Shown: piece by piece, positions 21,418 through 63,472 of the stretch
How the letters are laid out: each line of letters opens with the position of its first letter
How positions within the stretch are numbered: position 1 is the first letter of the stretch
Assembly: GCF_004571065.1 (NCBI RefSeq)
Contig: NZ_SPQN01000004.1
Location: forward strand, 1-64,000
Direction: 5' to 3'
DNA length: 64,000 bases
Origin: Geodermatophilus sp. DF01-2
GTDB lineage: Bacteria > Actinomycetota > Actinomycetes > Mycobacteriales > Geodermatophilaceae
The notes under the pieces: model-generated
Database searches by the model: none
Seen by the model: only the letters and a program-made list of their open reading frames with translations
What the model was told of the DNA's origin: nothing
Program-made: the position numbers and the translations under genes

Positions 21418-21509
21418 CACGGCAGTGCAGCGAGGAAGCCGGTGCGAGTCCGGCGCGGTCGCGCCACTGTGAGCCCCTGCGGGGTGAGCCAGACACCGCG
21501 GCTGCCGTG
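21418..21509 (+). ncRNA. Cobalamin riboswitch upstream of cobN
   Basis: The core GAGGAAGCCGGTGCGAGTCC followed by GGCGCGGTCGCGCCACTGTG and AGCCAGACAC is the cobalamin aptamer (GCCACTG is the B12-box core). The closing stem CACGGCAG (21418-21425) pairs perfectly with CTGCCGTG (21502-21509). It should repress cobN, which begins 40 bp downstream, when cobalamin is abundant. The downstream arm runs close to the ribosome site, so translational control is plausible. The 21283-21417 stretch before it holds only its promoter region. Confidence 0.92.
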
Positions 21510-27422: not shown

Positions 27423-27436
27423 TACGGTCGTCGATG
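27423..27436 (+). promoter_or_regulatory. -10 box for a leaderless bridging mini-ORF
   Basis: TACGGT (27423-27428) fits the TAnnnT -10 consensus and is followed six bases later by ATGGTG at 27434. Transcription starting there would put the mini-ORF start codon at the 5' end of the mRNA. No -35 box is obvious. Confidence 0.35.
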
Positions 27437-27517
27437 GTGAGCGAGCGTGCGAGCTCGCCCGTGCACTCGGCAGCGTTGGTCACCAGACCGACGAGCGTCA
27501 GCGAGGAGGACTCGTGA
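27437..27517 (+). CDS. Bridging mini-ORF (type 4 leader), copy before the Fic-like gene
   Basis: Exactly 26 codons plus stop; the TGA overlaps the GTG start of the next gene (GTGA). The peptide begins (M)SERASSPVHSAALVT and ends RPTSVSEEDS. GAGGAGGA just before the end can serve as the ribosome site of the next gene. An ATG at 27434 offers a start one codon earlier. Three relatives of equal length precede tadA, the helicase gene and the DUF3180 gene. Confidence 0.55.
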   Translation: MSERASSPVHSAALVTRPTSVSEEDS

Positions 27518-30463: not shown

Positions 30464-31561
30464 GTGTCCGCTCTCCGGTCCCTCCCCGCCCGCCCGCTCG
30501 TCGCCAGTGCCGACGAGGACCTCCTCGACGACCTGCTGCGGCTGCTGGCCGCGGCAGGGGCCGAGCCGGAGGTCGCCACGGGCGGTCCGGCGCTGCGTCG
30601 CGCCCACCGGGAGGCGCCGCTGGTCCTGCTCGGTGCCGACGTCCTCGGCTCGGCGCCCGTCCAGGTCCTGCCCCGCCGCCCCGGCGTGGTCGTCGTCGCA
30701 CCGGGGGAGCCGCAGGCCGCCGTCTGGGCGGCCGCGGTGGAGCGGGGTGCCGAGCGGGTGGCGGTCCTACCCGCGGAGGAGGGCTGGCTGGTGTCCCGGG
30801 TGGCGTCCGCGCTGCGCCGTCCGGTCGACCGCGGCCGGCTGGTGGCCGTCGGCGGCAGCTGCGGCGGCGCCGGGGTGAGCACGCTGGCGGCGGCGCTGGC
30901 GCTGACCGCCGCGCGGGGCGGGGACGGCGTCCTGCTCGTCGACACCGACGGGTGGGGCGGCGGGCTGGATCTGCTGCTGGGAGCCGAGCGCGAGGAGGGG
31001 CTGCGCTGGCCCGAGCTGGCCGGGCTGCGCGGCCGGGTGGCCGGCGACGCGCTCATGGCCGCGCTCCCGGAGGTCAGCGGTGTCTCCGTGCTCGCCGCCT
31101 CGCGGTCCGCGCCGGGAGAGGTGCCGGTGGAGGCGGTGACCGCAGTGGTCGAGGCCGTGCGGGCGGGCGGGTGGCCGGTGGTCGTCGACCTTCCCCGGAC
31201 AGCGGGCCCGGAGGCCGCCGGGGCGGTGCTGGCCGAGGCCGACCTCGCGGTGCTCGTCGTGCCCGCCCGCCTCCGGGCCGCGTCGGCCGCCCGCCTGCTG
31301 GTCGAGCCGCCTGCCGACGGCCGGCCCACCCCCTGGTCGCCGGCGCAGCTGGTGGTCCGGCCGGTGCCCGGCGGACTGTCCGCCGGCGAGGTCGCCGACG
31401 TCGTCGGCCGGCCGCTGCTGGGCGAGCTGGGGCACGACCGCACCGCAGTGCCCCGCGGTGAGCAGGGCAGGCCGCCGCAGGTGGCGAGCCGCTCACCGCT
31501 GGGCGCACTGGCCCGCAGGCTGCTGACCGAGCTGACCCGGGCCGACGGGGCCGCGGCATGA
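30464..31561 (+). CDS. ssd: Septum-site-determining protein Ssd (CpaE-like)
   Basis: Ssd proteins are MinD/CpaE-like and head actinobacterial Tad loci; in mycobacteria Rv3660c affects septation. The N-terminus (PLVASADEDLLDDLLRLLAA) resembles a degenerate receiver domain. The P-loop region is AVGGSCGGAGVSTLAAALAL, in which the signature lysines of the deviant Walker A box are missing, and a LLVDTDGWGGGLD Walker A' Asp segment follows. ATP hydrolysis is therefore doubtful, as for other Ssd members. The stop overlaps the ATG of the mini-ORF that leads into tadA. Confidence 0.85.
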   Translation: MSALRSLPARPLVASADEDLLDDLLRLLAAAGAEPEVATGGPALRRAHREAPLVLLGADVLGSAPVQVLPRRPGVVVVAPGEPQAAVWAAAVERGAERVAVLPAEEGWLVSRVASALRRPVDRGRLVAVGGSCGGAGVSTLAAALALTAARGGDGVLLVDTDGWGGGLDLLLGAEREEGLRWPELAGLRGRVAGDALMAALPEVSGVSVLAASRSAPGEVPVEAVTAVVEAVRAGGWPVVVDLPRTAGPEAAGAVLAEADLAVLVVPARLRAASAARLLVEPPADGRPTPWSPAQLVVRPVPGGLSAGEVADVVGRPLLGELGHDRTAVPRGEQGRPPQVASRSPLGALARRLLTELTRADGAAA

Positions 31562-31638
31562 GGGAGCTGGCGAGCTCACGCATGGACACAGCGGCGCCGC
31601 GAACGCGGCCGACGAGCGCAAACGGGGAGGGCTCGTGA
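31558..31638 (+). CDS. Bridging mini-ORF (type 4 leader), ssd-tadA relay
   Basis: ATG 31558 overlaps the ssd stop (ATGA). After 26 codons the TGA overlaps the tadA GTG (GTGA), so ribosomes could pass from ssd to tadA without a gap. The peptide is MRELASSRMDTAAPRTRPTS then ANGEGS. It aligns without gaps to the copies before the Fic-like, helicase and DUF3180 genes. GGGGAGG serves as a ribosome site for tadA. Confidence 0.6.
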   Translation: MRELASSRMDTAAPRTRPTSANGEGS

Positions 31639-32774
31639 CCGGGGCTCTCGTCGACCGGGTTCGTGCGCGTCTGGTGCTCGAGCCGGGGGTCCCGACGCGG
31701 GCCGTGGTCGCCGCGCTCGTGCGGGAGGAGTCCGGCGGGCTGCTCGGCGACGACGACGTCCTGCGGGCCGTACGCGACGCGGTGGACGAACTGGCCGGGG
31801 CCGGCCCACTGGAGCCGCTGTTGCGGGAGCCCGGGGTGAGTGACGTCCTGGTCAACGGCCCCGGCGAGGTGTGGGTCGACCGCGGTGGTGGCCTCGAGCG
31901 CACGCCGGTGCGGTTCCCGGACGAGGACGCGGTGCGCCGCCTCGCCGTCCGCCTCGCCGCTGCGGCCGGACGGCGGCTCGACGACGCCGCGCCGTGGGTG
32001 GACGCCGGGCTGCCCGACGGCACCCGGCTCCACGCGGTGCTGCCGCCGGTGTCGGGCGGCGGGACGTGCCTGTCGCTACGGGTGCTGCGCCGGGCGTCGC
32101 TGTCCTTCTCCGACCTGGCCGCGCGCGGTGCGTTCCCCGGGGTGTCCGGCGAGCTGCTGCGCGCGCTGGTCACCCGGCGGCTGGCGTTCCTGGTCACCGG
32201 CGGCACCGGGTCGGGCAAGACGACGCTGCTGTCGGCGCTCCTCGGCCTCGTCCCGCCGGGGGAGCGGCTCGTGCTGTGCGAGGACGCCCCGGAGCTGGTG
32301 CCGGCGCATCCGCACGTCGTCCGGCTGGCCACCCGGCCGGCCAACGTGGAGGGCGTCGGCGAGGTGACGCTGCGCGACCTGGTGCGCCAGGCGCTGCGGA
32401 TGCGGCCGGACCGGCTGGTCGTGGGCGAGGTGCGCGGCGCGGAGGTCACCGACCTGCTCACCGCCCTCAACACCGGGCACGACGGCGGCTGCGGCACGCT
32501 GCACGCCAACCGGCCGGCCGAGGTGCCGGCGCGGCTGGAGGCGCTCGGTGTGGCCGCCGGCCTGGACCGGCCGGCGGTGCACAGCCAGACGGCCGCGGCC
32601 CTGGCGGCGGTGGTGCACCTGCGCCGCACGCCGTCGGGACGGCGGGTCGAGGAGATCGGCGTGGTCCGCCGCGCCGGCGACCTCGTCGTCGTGGAGGCGG
32701 GGTGGCGGGCCGACGGCGGTCCGTGCCCGGCCGCCGAGCGCCTGGCGGAGCTGCTGTCGACGGGGCCCGGGTGA
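31635..32774 (+). CDS. tadA: Tad pilus assembly ATPase TadA/CpaF
   Basis: TadA is the hexameric secretion ATPase that drives Flp-type pilus assembly at the inner face of the membrane. It has the Walker A box LVTGGTGSGKTTLLSALLGL (about residues 188-207), the Asp box LCEDAPELVPAHPHVVRLAT, a Walker B region LRMRPDRLVVGEVRGAEVTD and the His box GHDGGCGTLHANRPAEVPAR. At 379 residues it is the compact actinobacterial form. Start GTG is coupled to the mini-ORF. The stop overlaps tadB by 4 bp. Confidence 0.95.
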   Translation: MTGALVDRVRARLVLEPGVPTRAVVAALVREESGGLLGDDDVLRAVRDAVDELAGAGPLEPLLREPGVSDVLVNGPGEVWVDRGGGLERTPVRFPDEDAVRRLAVRLAAAAGRRLDDAAPWVDAGLPDGTRLHAVLPPVSGGGTCLSLRVLRRASLSFSDLAARGAFPGVSGELLRALVTRRLAFLVTGGTGSGKTTLLSALLGLVPPGERLVLCEDAPELVPAHPHVVRLATRPANVEGVGEVTLRDLVRQALRMRPDRLVVGEVRGAEVTDLLTALNTGHDGGCGTLHANRPAEVPARLEALGVAAGLDRPAVHSQTAAALAAVVHLRRTPSGRRVEEIGVVRRAGDLVVVEAGWRADGGPCPAAERLAELLSTGPG

Positions 32775-36791: not shown

Positions 36792-36864
36792 GCGCCGGTC
36801 TCCCTTCGCTCGCGGAGACCCGCGGCGCACGGGAATCCGTCCTTGCCGGTCGGCGGTCGCCGTA

Positions 36865-36955
36865 CGGCCGGCTCTTCCCCTGGAGCACCTCAGACGGAGT
36901 AGAGGTTGCCGCGCAGCCAGCCAGGTGCTTATCGCTGCCTCTCGGGAGCCTTGCC
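36865..36955 (-). ncRNA. SAM riboswitch (SAM-IV-like) of metY-metX
   Basis: Read on the minus strand: GAGAGGCAGCGATAAGCACC, TGGCTGGCTGCGCGGCAACC, then GAGGTGCTCCAGGGGAAGAG. The arrangement of GGCAGCGA, the GGCAACC core and the GGTGCTCC-GGG-GAAGA tail fits the actinobacterial SAM-IV class (a SAM-I relative). A -10-like TAGCAT (36959-36964) just upstream would start transcription near 36952. High SAM should lower metYX expression. The rest of the 404-bp gap to the pilin gene holds the pilin promoter region with the TCCACA pair. Confidence 0.8.
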
Positions 36956-38429: not shown

Positions 38430-40949
38430 TCAGAAGACCAGGTCGTCCTCGGCCGCGGGTGGTTCCGCGTCGAGGCCGTCCGCCCGCGACGTCCCCCGGC
38501 GCACCTCGGCGGCCGGCCCTCCCCTCCGGTCGGCGTCCTCCTCGGCGGTCCCGCCGGCCGCCTCGGCGGCGGCCAGTTCGTCGAGGACGACGTCGAGCAG
38601 GCGCACCGCACCGGCCTTGTCCAGCGGGTCGTTGCCGTTGCCGCATTTGGGCGACTGCACGCAGGACGGGCAGCCGCTCTCGCACTCGCAGCTGGCCACC
38701 GTCGCCCGGGTGGCCTGCAGCCAGCGTCGCAGCACGGCGAACCCCCGCTCGGCGAAGCCCGCGCCGCCGGGGTGCCCGTCGTACACGACGATCGTGGCCG
38801 CGCCGGTGTCGGGGTGCAGTGCGGTCGAGACCCCGCCGAGGTCCCAGCGGTCGCAGGTCGCCAGCAGCGGGAGGATGCCGATCGCGGCGTGTTCGGCGGC
38901 GTGCAGGGAGCCGGGCAGCGCGACATCGTCCACCTCGGCGCGGGCCAGGGCACGCTCGTCGAGGGTCAGCCACACCGCGCGGGTGCGCAGCTGCCGGGCC
39001 GGCAGGTCCAGGGGGAACTCGGCCAGGACCTCGCCGGTCCCGAGCCGGCGGCGCTGGTAGGCCACCACCTGGTTGGTCACGTCGACGACCCCGGTGTGTG
39101 CCGTGACCGTGCCCAGTGACCGCGACCGGTCGGTGGCGACGACGGCGAGGTCGGTGACGTCCCGCGCCACCGTCGTCCATTCGGGGCTCTCGGGGTGGAC
39201 CACCGCGACGGCGTCGTCGACGCAGAACTCGTCGACGACGTAGGTCTCGCCCCGGTGGACGTACAGCGCACCGGTGTGCACGGTCGCGTGTGCGGCGTCG
39301 CCGTCGACCGTGCCGAGCAGCCGCCCGGTGTCTCCCTCGACGATGGTCACCGGCGCCAGGCCGCTGCCCCGGATGTCGACGTCCGGCCGGCCCCGCCCGG
39401 CCCAGTACCAGCCGGTGGGACGGCGGCGCAGCAGCCCCTCGGCGACCAGCTCCTCGACCCGCCCTTCCGCAGCCGCGCTGCCGAAGTCGGCCAGGTCCGC
39501 GGGGACCAGGGGGAGCTCCGCGGCCGCGCAGCACAGCTGCGGACCCAGCACGTAGGGGTTCGTCGGATCGGTGACGGTCGCCTCGATCGGCCGCCCGAAC
39601 ACCGCCCGCGGGTGGTGGGCCAGGTAGTGGTCGAGCGGGTCGTCGCGGGCGACGAAGACCACCAGCGACTCCCGTTGCGCCCGTCCCGCGCGGCCGGCCT
39701 GCTGCCACAGCGATGCCAGCGTCCCGGGATAGCCGGCCAGCACGACCGCGTCCAGACCGGCGATGTCGATGCCCAGCTCGAGGGCGTTCGTGGTGGCCAC
39801 GCCGAGCAGTTGCCCGGCGGACAGGGCCTGTTCCAGCTCGCGCCGCTCCTCGGGCAGGTAGCCGCCACGGTAGGAGTCCACCCGGCGGGCCAGGTCGGCG
39901 CGGCCGCGGTCGACCAGGACGTGACGGGCCTGCTCGGCGACCGACTCCGCGCTGCGCCGCGACCGGACGAACGCCAGCGTGCGGGCTCCCCGCTCGACCA
40001 GGTCGGCCAGCAGCGTGGCCGCATCCGCGGCGGCCGACCGGCGCAGCGGAGCGCCGTGCTCCCCGGTGCGCTCGGTCAGCGGCGGCTCCCACAGGGCGAA
40101 CGTCGCGCCCGGCCGGGGCGAGCCGTCGTCGGTCACGGCGACGACCGGGGCGCCGACCAGCCGGGTCGCTGCCGCGGCCGGCTCGGCGACCGTGGCCGAG
40201 GCCAGGAGGAACACCGGCTCGGCGCCGTAGCGGCGGCAGATCCGCCGCAGTCGGCGCAGCACGTGGCCGACGTGGGACCCGAAGACGCCGCGGTAGGCGT
40301 GGCACTCGTCGACGATGACGTAGGTCAGCCGGCGCAGCGTGCTCGACCACCGCTGGTGGGCCGGCAGCACGCCGCGGTGGAGCATGTCGGGGTTGGTGAC
40401 GATCCAGCGCGAGTGCCGCCGGACCCACTCCCGCTCCTCCATGGGCGTGTCGCCGTCGTAGGCGGCCGGGCGCACCGACGGGTCGGCCAACTCCGCCACC
40501 GACGCCAGCTGGTCGCGGGCCAGGGCCTTGGTCGGCGCCAGGTACAGGACGCAGGCCCGTGGGTCCTCGGCCAGCCGGGTCAGCGCCGGTAGCTGGTAGG
40601 CAAGCGACTTGCCCGACGCCGTCCCGGTGGCCACGACGACGTGCGAGCCGTCGCGGGCCAGCTGCGCGGCCTCGACCTGGTGCCGCCACGGCGCACGGAC
40701 GCCGCAGGCCTCGAGTCGTTCGCGCAGCTGCGGGTCCACCCACCCCGGCCACGGCAGGGTGTGGCTCCGCCGCACCGGCATCCGGTGCACGTGGGTGATC
40801 GGCTGTTCCTCCTCGGGGATTCCGGTGAGGACGGCGGCCAGCAGGTCGGCCCCCGGCAGCGGCGCACCGGCGGGGGAGGGCGACCCACCCGGGGGAAGAG
40901 GGTCCGTGCCGGGAGGGGGAGCCGACCGGACCGGGTGGAGCGTGGTCAC
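38430..40949 (-). CDS. DEAD/DEAH-box helicase with C-terminal Cys cluster (MrfA/Rv3649-like)
   Basis: An 839-residue superfamily 2 helicase: Walker A VVATGTASGKSLAYQLPALT (about residues 104-123), DEAH-type box VIVDECHAYRGVFGSHVGHV, motif III LLASATV and motif VI QQAGRAGRAQRESLVVFV. The C-terminal DUF1998-like part holds SCECESGCPSCVQSPKCGNG, the four-Cys metal site of MrfA, a DNA-repair helicase for mitomycin damage. GTG 40949 is coupled to a mini-ORF. The stop TGA lies in a half copy of the type 2 repeat. Confidence 0.92.
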   Translation of the reverse strand: MTTLHPVRSAPPPGTDPLPPGGSPSPAGAPLPGADLLAAVLTGIPEEEQPITHVHRMPVRRSHTLPWPGWVDPQLRERLEACGVRAPWRHQVEAAQLARDGSHVVVATGTASGKSLAYQLPALTRLAEDPRACVLYLAPTKALARDQLASVAELADPSVRPAAYDGDTPMEEREWVRRHSRWIVTNPDMLHRGVLPAHQRWSSTLRRLTYVIVDECHAYRGVFGSHVGHVLRRLRRICRRYGAEPVFLLASATVAEPAAAATRLVGAPVVAVTDDGSPRPGATFALWEPPLTERTGEHGAPLRRSAAADAATLLADLVERGARTLAFVRSRRSAESVAEQARHVLVDRGRADLARRVDSYRGGYLPEERRELEQALSAGQLLGVATTNALELGIDIAGLDAVVLAGYPGTLASLWQQAGRAGRAQRESLVVFVARDDPLDHYLAHHPRAVFGRPIEATVTDPTNPYVLGPQLCCAAAELPLVPADLADFGSAAAEGRVEELVAEGLLRRRPTGWYWAGRGRPDVDIRGSGLAPVTIVEGDTGRLLGTVDGDAAHATVHTGALYVHRGETYVVDEFCVDDAVAVVHPESPEWTTVARDVTDLAVVATDRSRSLGTVTAHTGVVDVTNQVVAYQRRRLGTGEVLAEFPLDLPARQLRTRAVWLTLDERALARAEVDDVALPGSLHAAEHAAIGILPLLATCDRWDLGGVSTALHPDTGAATIVVYDGHPGGAGFAERGFAVLRRWLQATRATVASCECESGCPSCVQSPKCGNGNDPLDKAGAVRLLDVVLDELAAAEAAGGTAEEDADRRGGPAAEVRRGTSRADGLDAEPPAAEDDLVF

Positions 40950-41026
40950 GCAATCTCCTCGCTGGCGCTCGTCGACCGCGCGCCCACGGGTGCTGTGTCT
41001 CTGGGTGACCTCGCGAGCTCGGCCAC
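40946..41026 (-). CDS. Bridging mini-ORF (type 4 leader), copy before the helicase gene
   Basis: GTG 41026 opens 26 codons ending in a TGA that overlaps the helicase GTG (GTGA). The peptide is MAELARSPRDTAPVGARSTS then ASEEIA. It aligns without gaps with the other three copies; Glu 3, Ala 5, Ser 7 and Thr-Ser at 19-20 are shared. GAGGAG near the end is the ribosome site of the helicase. Confidence 0.55.
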   Translation of the reverse strand: MAELARSPRDTAPVGARSTSASEEIA

Positions 41027-62389: not shown

Positions 62390-62892
62390 GTCGGGCGGTT
62401 CTGTCGCTCGGCGCCAACCTGGGGGACCGGGCTGCCACGCTGCGGGCCGCGGTCACCGCGCTCCAGGACGACGGAGTGCTGGTCGCCCGCTCGACGCTGT
62501 ACGAGACGCCGCCGTGGGGACCGGTCGAGCAGCCGCCGTACCTGAACGCGGTCGTCGTCGTGCGCGGTGCTCTCGACGCCGCCGGCTGGCTGGCCCGCGC
62601 GCACGAGCTGGAGCAGGCGGCCGGGCGTACCCGGGAGGTGCGCTGGGGGCCGCGCACCCTCGACGTCGACGTCGTCACGGTCACCGGGGACGACGGGCAG
62701 CCGGTGCTCTCCGAGGACCCCGTCCTCACCCTGCCGCACCCCCGTGCGCACGAGCGGGCCTTCGTCCTGGTGCCGTGGGTCAGCCTCGACCCGACCGCGG
62801 TGCTGCCGGGCCACGGCCGGGTGAGCGACCTGCTCGCCGCACTGCCGCCGGAGGACGTCACGGCCGTCGTCCGCTGGGAGCACCTGAGTTGA
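62386..62892 (+). CDS. folK: HPPK: 2-amino-4-hydroxy-6-hydroxymethyldihydropteridine pyrophosphokinase
   Basis: FolK transfers pyrophosphate from ATP to the pterin, giving the FolP substrate. Family motifs are VLSLGANLGDRAATLRAAVT, STLYETPPWGPVEQPPYLNA and the HPPK signature RWGPRTLDVDVVTV followed by LPHPRAHERAFVLVPW. The 168 residues are normal. GTG 62386 overlaps folB. The stop overlaps the TTG of the mini-ORF. Confidence 0.96.
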   Translation: MSRAVLSLGANLGDRAATLRAAVTALQDDGVLVARSTLYETPPWGPVEQPPYLNAVVVVRGALDAAGWLARAHELEQAAGRTREVRWGPRTLDVDVVTVTGDDGQPVLSEDPVLTLPHPRAHERAFVLVPWVSLDPTAVLPGHGRVSDLLAALPPEDVTAVVRWEHLS

Positions 62893-62969
62893 GCGAGTTC
62901 GCGAGCTCGACCATCGCCACAGCGGACCGTCGAACGTGGCCGACGAGCGTCAACGAGGAGGTCTCGTGA
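62889..62969 (+). CDS. Bridging mini-ORF (type 4 leader), folK-DUF3180 relay
   Basis: TTG 62889 overlaps the folK stop (TTGA); after 26 codons the TGA overlaps GTG 62966 of the DUF3180 gene. The peptide is (M)SEFASSTIATADRRTWPTS then VNEEVS. It is the same length as the other three type 4 copies and keeps Glu 3, Ala 5, Ser 7 and Thr-Ser at 19-20. GAGGAGG is the ribosome site for the next gene. Confidence 0.58.
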   Translation: MSEFASSTIATADRRTWPTSVNEEVS

Positions 62970-63472
62970 GACCGGTGAACCGGCGCGACCTGCTGGTCCT
63001 CGCCGCCGGCCTGGCCGTCGCGTCGTGGCTCGTCGTGCGCGCGGCCTACGGCTCGCTGCCCGAGCTGCGCTGGTGGCTGCCGGTGCCGCTCGGGGTGCTC
63101 GCCGTCGCGGAGTTCCTCGGCGCCCGCACGCTGCGGACCCGGCTGGCCGCCCAGCGGGACCGGCGTCCACCGGCCGAGCGCGGCACCGCGCCGGTCCGGC
63201 CGGTCGAGCCGATGCTGGTCGCCCGGCTGGCCGTCCTGGCCCAGGCCAGCGCCTACGTCGGCGCGGTGTTCGTCGGCATCTGGGTCGGCCTGCTGCTGTA
63301 CGCGGCGCCCTTGGTGTCCCGGCTGCAGGCCGCCGGCGGGGACACCGTCACCGGGGTCGTCGGGGTGGTGTGCTCCGCCGCCCTGGTCGCGGCCGCGCTG
63401 TGGCTCGAGTCGATCTGCCGCATACCGCCGTCGTCGGACGACGAGACGCCGCCCGCCGGCGCCCGGGCGTGA
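62966..63472 (+). CDS. DUF3180 membrane protein (Rv3605c-like)
   Basis: The 168-residue protein has four hydrophobic segments: LLVLAAGLAVASWLVVRAAY, RWWLPVPLGVLAVAEFLGAR, SAYVGAVFVGIWVGLLLYAA and VTGVVGVVCSAALVAAALWL. It follows the folate genes in many actinobacteria. The function is unknown. Start GTG is coupled to the mini-ORF. Confidence 0.85.
   Translation: MRPVNRRDLLVLAAGLAVASWLVVRAAYGSLPELRWWLPVPLGVLAVAEFLGARTLRTRLAAQRDRRPPAERGTAPVRPVEPMLVARLAVLAQASAYVGAVFVGIWVGLLLYAAPLVSRLQAAGGDTVTGVVGVVCSAALVAAALWLESICRIPPSSDDETPPAGARA

Follow-up and report, generated by a model that had tools for sequence, protein, structure and literature searches.

A MIRU-like interspersed repeat with a putative ribosome-relaying mini-ORF at gene starts of Geodermatophilus

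Four mini-ORFs and the repeat to which they belong

The stretch of DNA analyzed here, referred to as the window, comprises positions 1-64000 of contig C144 in a 4.45-Mb draft genome of Geodermatophilus (G000; 199 contigs). It contains four short open reading frames of 81 nucleotides, each made of 26 codons and a TGA stop, and in each the TGA overlaps the GTG start codon of the next gene. The first of them (copy 1; 27437..27517, plus strand) leads into a gene without a Pfam match that starts at 27514; it has no overlap with an upstream gene on the same strand, and is preceded by the hexamer TACGGT (27423..27428, plus strand), a probable -10 box of a once leaderless gene. Copy 2 (31558..31638, plus strand) lies between a gene that the first-pass annotation had named ssd (30464-31561, plus strand), the product of which gave only a sub-threshold match to ParA in a Pfam search, and the gene of a T2SSE/TadA-type ATPase (31635..32774, plus strand), which starts in the GTGA of the copy; the copy thereby occupies what used to be an NTGA overlap of the two genes. 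Copy 3 (40946..41026, minus strand), which belongs to a second subfamily and has GTGG at its left start, precedes the gene of a DEAD helicase with an MrfA Zn-binding domain (from 40949 downward, minus strand). Copy 4 (62889..62969, plus strand) occupies the former NTGA overlap of folK (HPPK) and a DUF3180 gene (62966..63472, plus strand); the latter starts at the GTG of the repeat, and the left TTG opens the mini-ORF. At copies 2 and 4 the left start codon overlaps the stop codon of the preceding gene as well, as ATGA at 31558 and TTGA at 62889, respectively. Glu3, Ala5, Ser7, Thr19-Ser20 and Glu24 are common to all four peptides, and the genes behind them were found to be unrelated by Pfam comparison; all of this agrees with the first-pass annotation, to which Ala12 can be added as another residue common to the four. 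Elsewhere in the window, a SAM-IV riboswitch scored above the gathering score (36834-36949, minus strand), and a partial match to the cobalamin riboswitch was barely above it (21434-21496).

The repeat unit is 77 bp long, extending from a TGA through the G that precedes the next TGA. Copy 4 alone, used as a DNA query, gave 50 matches in its own genome at E ≤ 10; copy 2 was matched at E 9.4e-13 and part of copy 1 at 1.6e-6, the best other places in the genome scored 9.8e-16 and 2.7e-13, and copy 3 was absent among the matches listed. Since copy 2, part of copy 1 and other sites of the genome were matched at such low E values, the resemblance of the copies is above chance. A sequence-only profile model (R1), built from 23 repeat units, scored the four copies of the window at E 2.0e-19 to 3.5e-17, all four being in its training set, and gave 92 matches in the whole genome at E ≤ 0.01. 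These fall into 75 loci, 10 of which are tandem arrays of two to five units; four of the matches are those in the window, and the next ones on the same contig are located beyond it, at 65469 and 113213. The usual period of the arrays is 77 bp, such that each TGA in an array overlaps the start codon of the following unit. Two arrays are found at contig ends (C49 and C135), which is to be expected because repeats break an assembly. The four frames are copies of an interspersed 77-bp repeat rather than leader peptides.

All 25 genomes searched within the genus were positive with R1 at E ≤ 0.01, with 5-92 matches each, and 7 of 16 genomes of other families matched weakly (best E 0.0019). Among 298 sampled genomes of the order, 49 of the 51 from the same family were positive at E ≤ 1e-4, as were 30 of the 247 outside it; the genus and order surveys were run with tighter filters or with a small number of candidates from each genome, and their counts are therefore lower bounds. 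In 80 loci around relatives of TadA (R1, E < 1e-5), the named carriers were three Geodermatophilus, three Blastococcus and one Modestobacter, while the closest named relatives of the TadA gene of the window were those of Geodermatophilus africanus, poikilotrophus and siccatus (93-94% identity). Plasmids gave no match to the repeat at E ≤ 0.01. A reading in terms of RNA structure was dropped, as the RNAalifold consensus of 23 copies, at -5.98 kcal/mol, showed little covariation and no convincing common fold.

Placement at start codons and empty sites in relatives

For the analysis of placement, genes were called by length and codon-position G+C rather than by annotation. The right-hand NTG of the repeat was the first codon of a coding frame at 62 of the 68 loci of this genome in which the right end could be assigned; the six exceptions were C104, which is just below the threshold, C135, which is cut by the contig end, and C155, C173, C117 and C53. 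It is to be noted that repeat and gene are co-oriented at the 62 loci because the placement test scores that orientation. Both ends could be assigned at 59 loci; 34 of these coincide with a stop/start overlap, 20 with a start alone, four with a stop alone and one with neither. The corresponding numbers for the 485 NTGA[GC] sites on both strands of the window, several of which are ends of the four copies themselves, were 11, 45, 14 and 415. Selection against harmful insertions would explain the absence of the repeat from genes, but it explains less well the near-absence from plain intergenic spots.

The base that follows the left TGA is G or C depending on the subfamily, and the one that follows the right TGA is part of the gene. 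Of the 59 terminal copies, 52 have a G or a C in the two positions, and the two bases agree in 43 of these (21 GG and 22 CC, against 5 GC and 4 CG; Fisher p 4e-6). This match suggests that the insertion site is probably TGA and one matched base. Inside the repeat, 71 of 81 copies have a base 17 complementary to the X of TGAX, which mainly reflects the two subfamilies; the inverted repeat TGAXC..GX'TCA, tabulated for the left end, likewise rests on the two main subfamilies and is retained here as a tentative idea. The right start codon has a Shine-Dalgarno sequence of at least 4 nt in all 62 copies scored. Upstream of the left start codon, 20 of 62 copies have a ribosome site spanning 5 nt or more, compared with 14% of 223 random sites, and 7 of 62 have a TA[CG]NNT box, compared with 3 of the 223.

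At the ssd-tadA junction, where copy 2 is located in the window, the two genes overlap directly as NTGA at 44 of 55 loci. The junction is occupied by 77 bp in this genome, by a 65-bp version in G. africanus and by two units in L178; at the other loci the genes overlap in a different way (five at -4), are slightly shifted (6 and 9) or give no clear picture (L136, L182). The folK-DUF3180 junction of copy 4 is a direct overlap at 16 of 25 loci and has a 3-bp shift in L250; the remaining eight, this genome included, are occupied by 77 bp (four times), 74, 35, 32 and 17 bp. At the directly overlapping sites of relatives, DUF3180 starts with TTG or GTG. The helicase junction of copy 3 is without the repeat at 24 of 26 loci by eye, and copy 3 is shared with one of 25 relatives of the genus (L221), again by eye on the junctions listed. 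Most of the orthologous loci listed for copy 1 are also without the repeat, which R1 detects in L132, L137, L144, L145 and L155, and in most of these orthologous loci (among L131-L185) TACCGT or a similar hexamer is found shortly 5' of the GTG. The empty form of this gene looks leaderless in relatives, and the repeat may have made the gene the second cistron of a leaderless transcript; in L132, the left start codon seems to have been lost.

Frame, phase and codon positions of the mini-ORF

Comparison of 55 distinct 77-bp copies with the consensus of their subfamily revealed 184 synonymous and 505 non-synonymous differences. Random placement of the same changes gave an expectation of 175.5 synonymous differences (sd 10.1; p 0.23), i.e., there was no clear excess. 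The middle part alone showed a mild synonymous excess (174 against 152.9 expected, p 0.017), as did the same part in frame 2 (144 against 128.7, p 0.03), and diversity was nearly equal across the three codon positions. In-frame stops were fewer than expected in the copies of this genome (3 of 57, against 8.1 expected; p 0.02) and in 60 copies of other Geodermatophilaceae (1 against 7.1; p 0.005), the latter being the best-scoring listed matches and thus biased towards fresh copies. In the pooled 117 copies, there were 4 stops against 15.8 expected, a number that was reached in none of 500 shuffles. Two of the three own copies with an in-frame stop belong to the same array and have the stop one codon before the overlap (TGATG). 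Frame 1 showed no depletion of stops (39 against 31.9 expected) and frame 2 a weaker one (12 against 22.2, p 0.006); the latter indicates that the null model is imperfect. In the array at G000 C181:15433-15665, the units end in GACTGATGACC, and the stop, placed one codon early, overlaps the next ATG as TGATG.

The first-pass annotation had seen no indels, which is true of the four copies but not of the family, since units of 62, 65, 68, 71, 74, 75, 76 and 78 bp also occur in this genome. Length and stop counts excluded 16 of the 92 places of this genome in which the end of the unit could not be assigned, copy 3 among them. Outside this genome, 106 of 123 matches were scored, leaving out 17 short or secondary tandem matches, and the 13 of these 106 that could not be assigned all belong to one genome, G167. 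Fourteen loci of this genome have a unit other than 77 bp, arrays being counted once, by hand. Eight of them are 3n+2 in length (62, 65 three times, 68, 71, 74 twice). Another five have a length of 3n (75, and 78 four times), and the unit of 76 bp, which is 3n+1, is in the third phase; the 3n+2 bias in these loci alone (8 of 14) is not significant (p 0.06). Among 61 copies from other genomes, a single one departs from 77 bp, with a length of 78 bp (3n), and all five orthologous remnants are 3n+2 (65, 74, 35, 32 and 17 bp), including pieces that are no longer repeat-like. Altogether, 13 of the 20 units that differ from 77 bp are 3n+2 (p 0.004), and a single one is in the third phase. These lengths are most simply read as the outcome of selection that keeps the end of the frame at the overlapping TGA. 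The 3n units (75 and 78 bp) do not stop at the overlap, and would instead join the frame of the mini-ORF to that of the gene.

Units of 78 bp were noted at C128:34225-34305, C66:27536-27616, C53:2227-2307 and C21:1241-1394 of G000, and also in L421. In these units the mini-ORF shares its frame with the start codon that follows, and the fused frames extend, as far as read, to 369 codons at C128 and 322 at C66. In L085 (G000 C179:3969-4008), the left half of the repeat continues, stop-free and in frame, into the coding frame behind it; here the mini-ORF seems to have been taken over as the N-terminal part of the following gene.

In the first-pass annotation, frame-breaking lengths in related copies or equally frequent change at all codon positions were named as signs of a non-coding repeat. 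The present data point both ways, in that stops and the third phase are avoided, whereas the three codon positions change about equally and some lengths do break the frame. On these counts, what is retained is an open, phased relay and not a peptide.

Proposed ribosome relay, its rivals and the likeness to MIRUs

We consider it probable that the four frames belong to a MIRU-like interspersed repeat at gene starts, the mini-ORF of which relays ribosomes to the gene behind it. The repeat would enter the NTGA of a gene start, usually where the TGA is also the stop codon of the upstream gene, and the old start codon with its ribosome site or leaderless promoter would then drive the 26-codon frame. 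The end of the mini-ORF carries GAGGAGG and the GTGA overlap, such that ribosomes finishing the mini-ORF would restart on the gene. Both the translation of the mini-ORF and its coupling to the gene are deduced from this arrangement of sequence elements, and the repeat would be copied by a mobile-element-like process with TGA and one matched base as its target. A translational relay had been among the suggestions of the first-pass annotation, and it is upheld here as the likely course: frame and phase tend to persist, the amino acids do not clearly do so, and the translation itself is presumed.

A plainer view is that the repeat merely carries a ribosome site, with GAGGAGG-GTG providing an independent start of the gene and an inner frame that is incidental. 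This would agree with the absence of a clear preference for synonymous changes, with the strong Shine-Dalgarno sequence at the right start of every one of the 62 copies scored, and with the related copies of G167, described below, which are often without a closed frame. It fits poorly, however, with the depletion of in-frame stops in two sets of copies and with orthologous remnants that stay 3n+2 down to 17, 32 and 35 bp, and we regard it as unlikely. A regulatory leader peptide, e.g., an attenuator responsive to some amino acid or drug, would account for a short frame before genes and for its conserved ends, and the first-pass annotation had indeed spoken of a family of leader peptides. That idea had to be abandoned, as the genes behind the four copies are unrelated, the same repeat is found before dozens of genes, its sites are empty in relatives, and the codons drift without a clear synonymous excess. 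Moreover, there was no convincing common fold, none of the four copies matched Rfam at the gathering threshold, and we found neither codon conservation nor an RNA fold linked to what the downstream gene does; this reading is thus very improbable. Hardly any credence can be given either to a family of functional small proteins, for which the persistence of the open frame would speak, but which is opposed by the absence of a clear synonymous excess, by in-frame losses of one to five codons, and by the lack of a Pfam match for the two mini-ORF peptides tested.

As regards the novelty of the repeat, the first-pass annotation knew of no described family like this one; the kind is, however, already described, namely as the mycobacterial MIRUs with their start-codon insertion and coupled inner ORF. 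As summarized in a passage of a 2025 review (PMC12548453) that cites Supply 1997, MIRUs are apparently mobile, insert at start codons and contain an ORF that is coupled to the gene at -4 nt. A passage of PMC2734929 gives their size as 40-100 bp, with 41 locations in M. tuberculosis, and mentions one locus at which tandem-repeat length correlates with the mRNA level. The Geodermatophilus repeat resembles them in several respects. Its unit is short (77 bp) and present at dozens of places (75 loci), it forms tandem arrays (10 arrays of two to five units), it is inserted at start codons (62 of 68 loci, some of which are empty in relatives), and it has an inner ORF that overlaps the gene, the coupling here being presumed. 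It differs in its host family, the Geodermatophilaceae, in the length of the unit (77 bp, the mycobacterial units before regX3 being mostly 53 bp), and in that no sequence homology was detected in either direction; by eye, the two are alike at their 3' ends only (GAGCG.AGCGA..GGAGGA). No published account of such repeats in Geodermatophilus, Blastococcus or Modestobacter was found in the literature, judged mainly by titles, and the repeat family in this host family appears to be unreported, while the kind of element is known from mycobacteria.

The homology searches employed three sequence-only models, R1, R2 and R3, the last built from ten mycobacterial regX3 units. The genomes compared are presumably those of Mycobacterium, to which they were assigned via a RegX3 that is 94-99% identical to the M. 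tuberculosis sequence. R1 and R2 did not detect the units beside regX3 in these Mycobacterium-like genomes. R3 gave 31-41 matches in each of four of the seven Mycobacterium-like genomes and 4-8 in each of the other three, no match in G000, and none at a repeat among 36 other loci searched; of two genomes of genus g27, one gave a single weak match (E 0.004). The weak R3 matches in non-mycobacterial loci lie away from the repeats (best, L334 660-711, E 0.012). As no homology emerged from the profile searches in either direction, the repeat was named MIRU-like and not MIRU. Its architecture is shared with MIRUs, homology is not shown, and convergence and extreme divergence are both possible.

Comparison can be extended to other systems. 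MITE and REP elements are small, mobile, interspersed repeats with no enzyme of their own; the Geodermatophilus repeat is likewise interspersed and encodes no enzyme, but it differs from them in having no end-to-end pairing in the consensus fold and in its placement, which is at start and stop codons and follows the orientation of the gene. In bicistronic designs, as outlined in PMC12548453, a short ORF also delivers ribosomes to a downstream start, whereas the present repeat is natural, repeated and spread through the genome. A wider reading, which we offer as speculative and doubtful, is that start-codon relay repeats have had more than one origin among actinobacteria and form a class of genome parasites hidden in stop/start overlaps, with TGAX pairing guiding insertion and start codons being rewritten. 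In IS200/IS605-like guided insertion, an inner guide sequence matches the target, and the transposase is of the Y1 type. In the Geodermatophilus repeat, an inner copy complementary to the target TGAX would by analogy make subfamily and target base match, and the rewriting of TTG or ATG to GTG would reset the translation of genes.

To return to the ribosome relay, a frame that is kept together with amino acids that are not clearly kept is the prediction of a pure relay. The concept of MIRUs, in which a mobile repeat enters a start codon and its mini-ORF restores coupling, has so far apparently been based on mycobacteria; a second family with no detectable homology, variable copy number and clear empty sites suggests a general solution and provides a natural test. 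Where such repeats occur, the annotation of gene starts and of small proteins may be a misreading.

Of the 30 positive genomes outside the family, 16 were re-examined. G167 (family f15) had 59 matches at E ≤ 0.001; one to three matches each, some of them weak, were present in three genomes of genus g27 (family f8). Among the 45 copies examined in G167, 32 could be resolved, and in these the frame closes at the right TGA in 17 and the length is 3n+2 in 20. By eye, several copies are without a same-strand coding frame directly behind them and some follow the stop codon of a gene; three sets of copies (9, 8 and 7) showed no clear depletion of stops. This looser pattern implies that the relay rule is a property of the Geodermatophilaceae copies and not of every relative. 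Two arrays of G167, at C4:263831-264068 and C15:100691-100928, consist of related repeats with a period of 80 bp.
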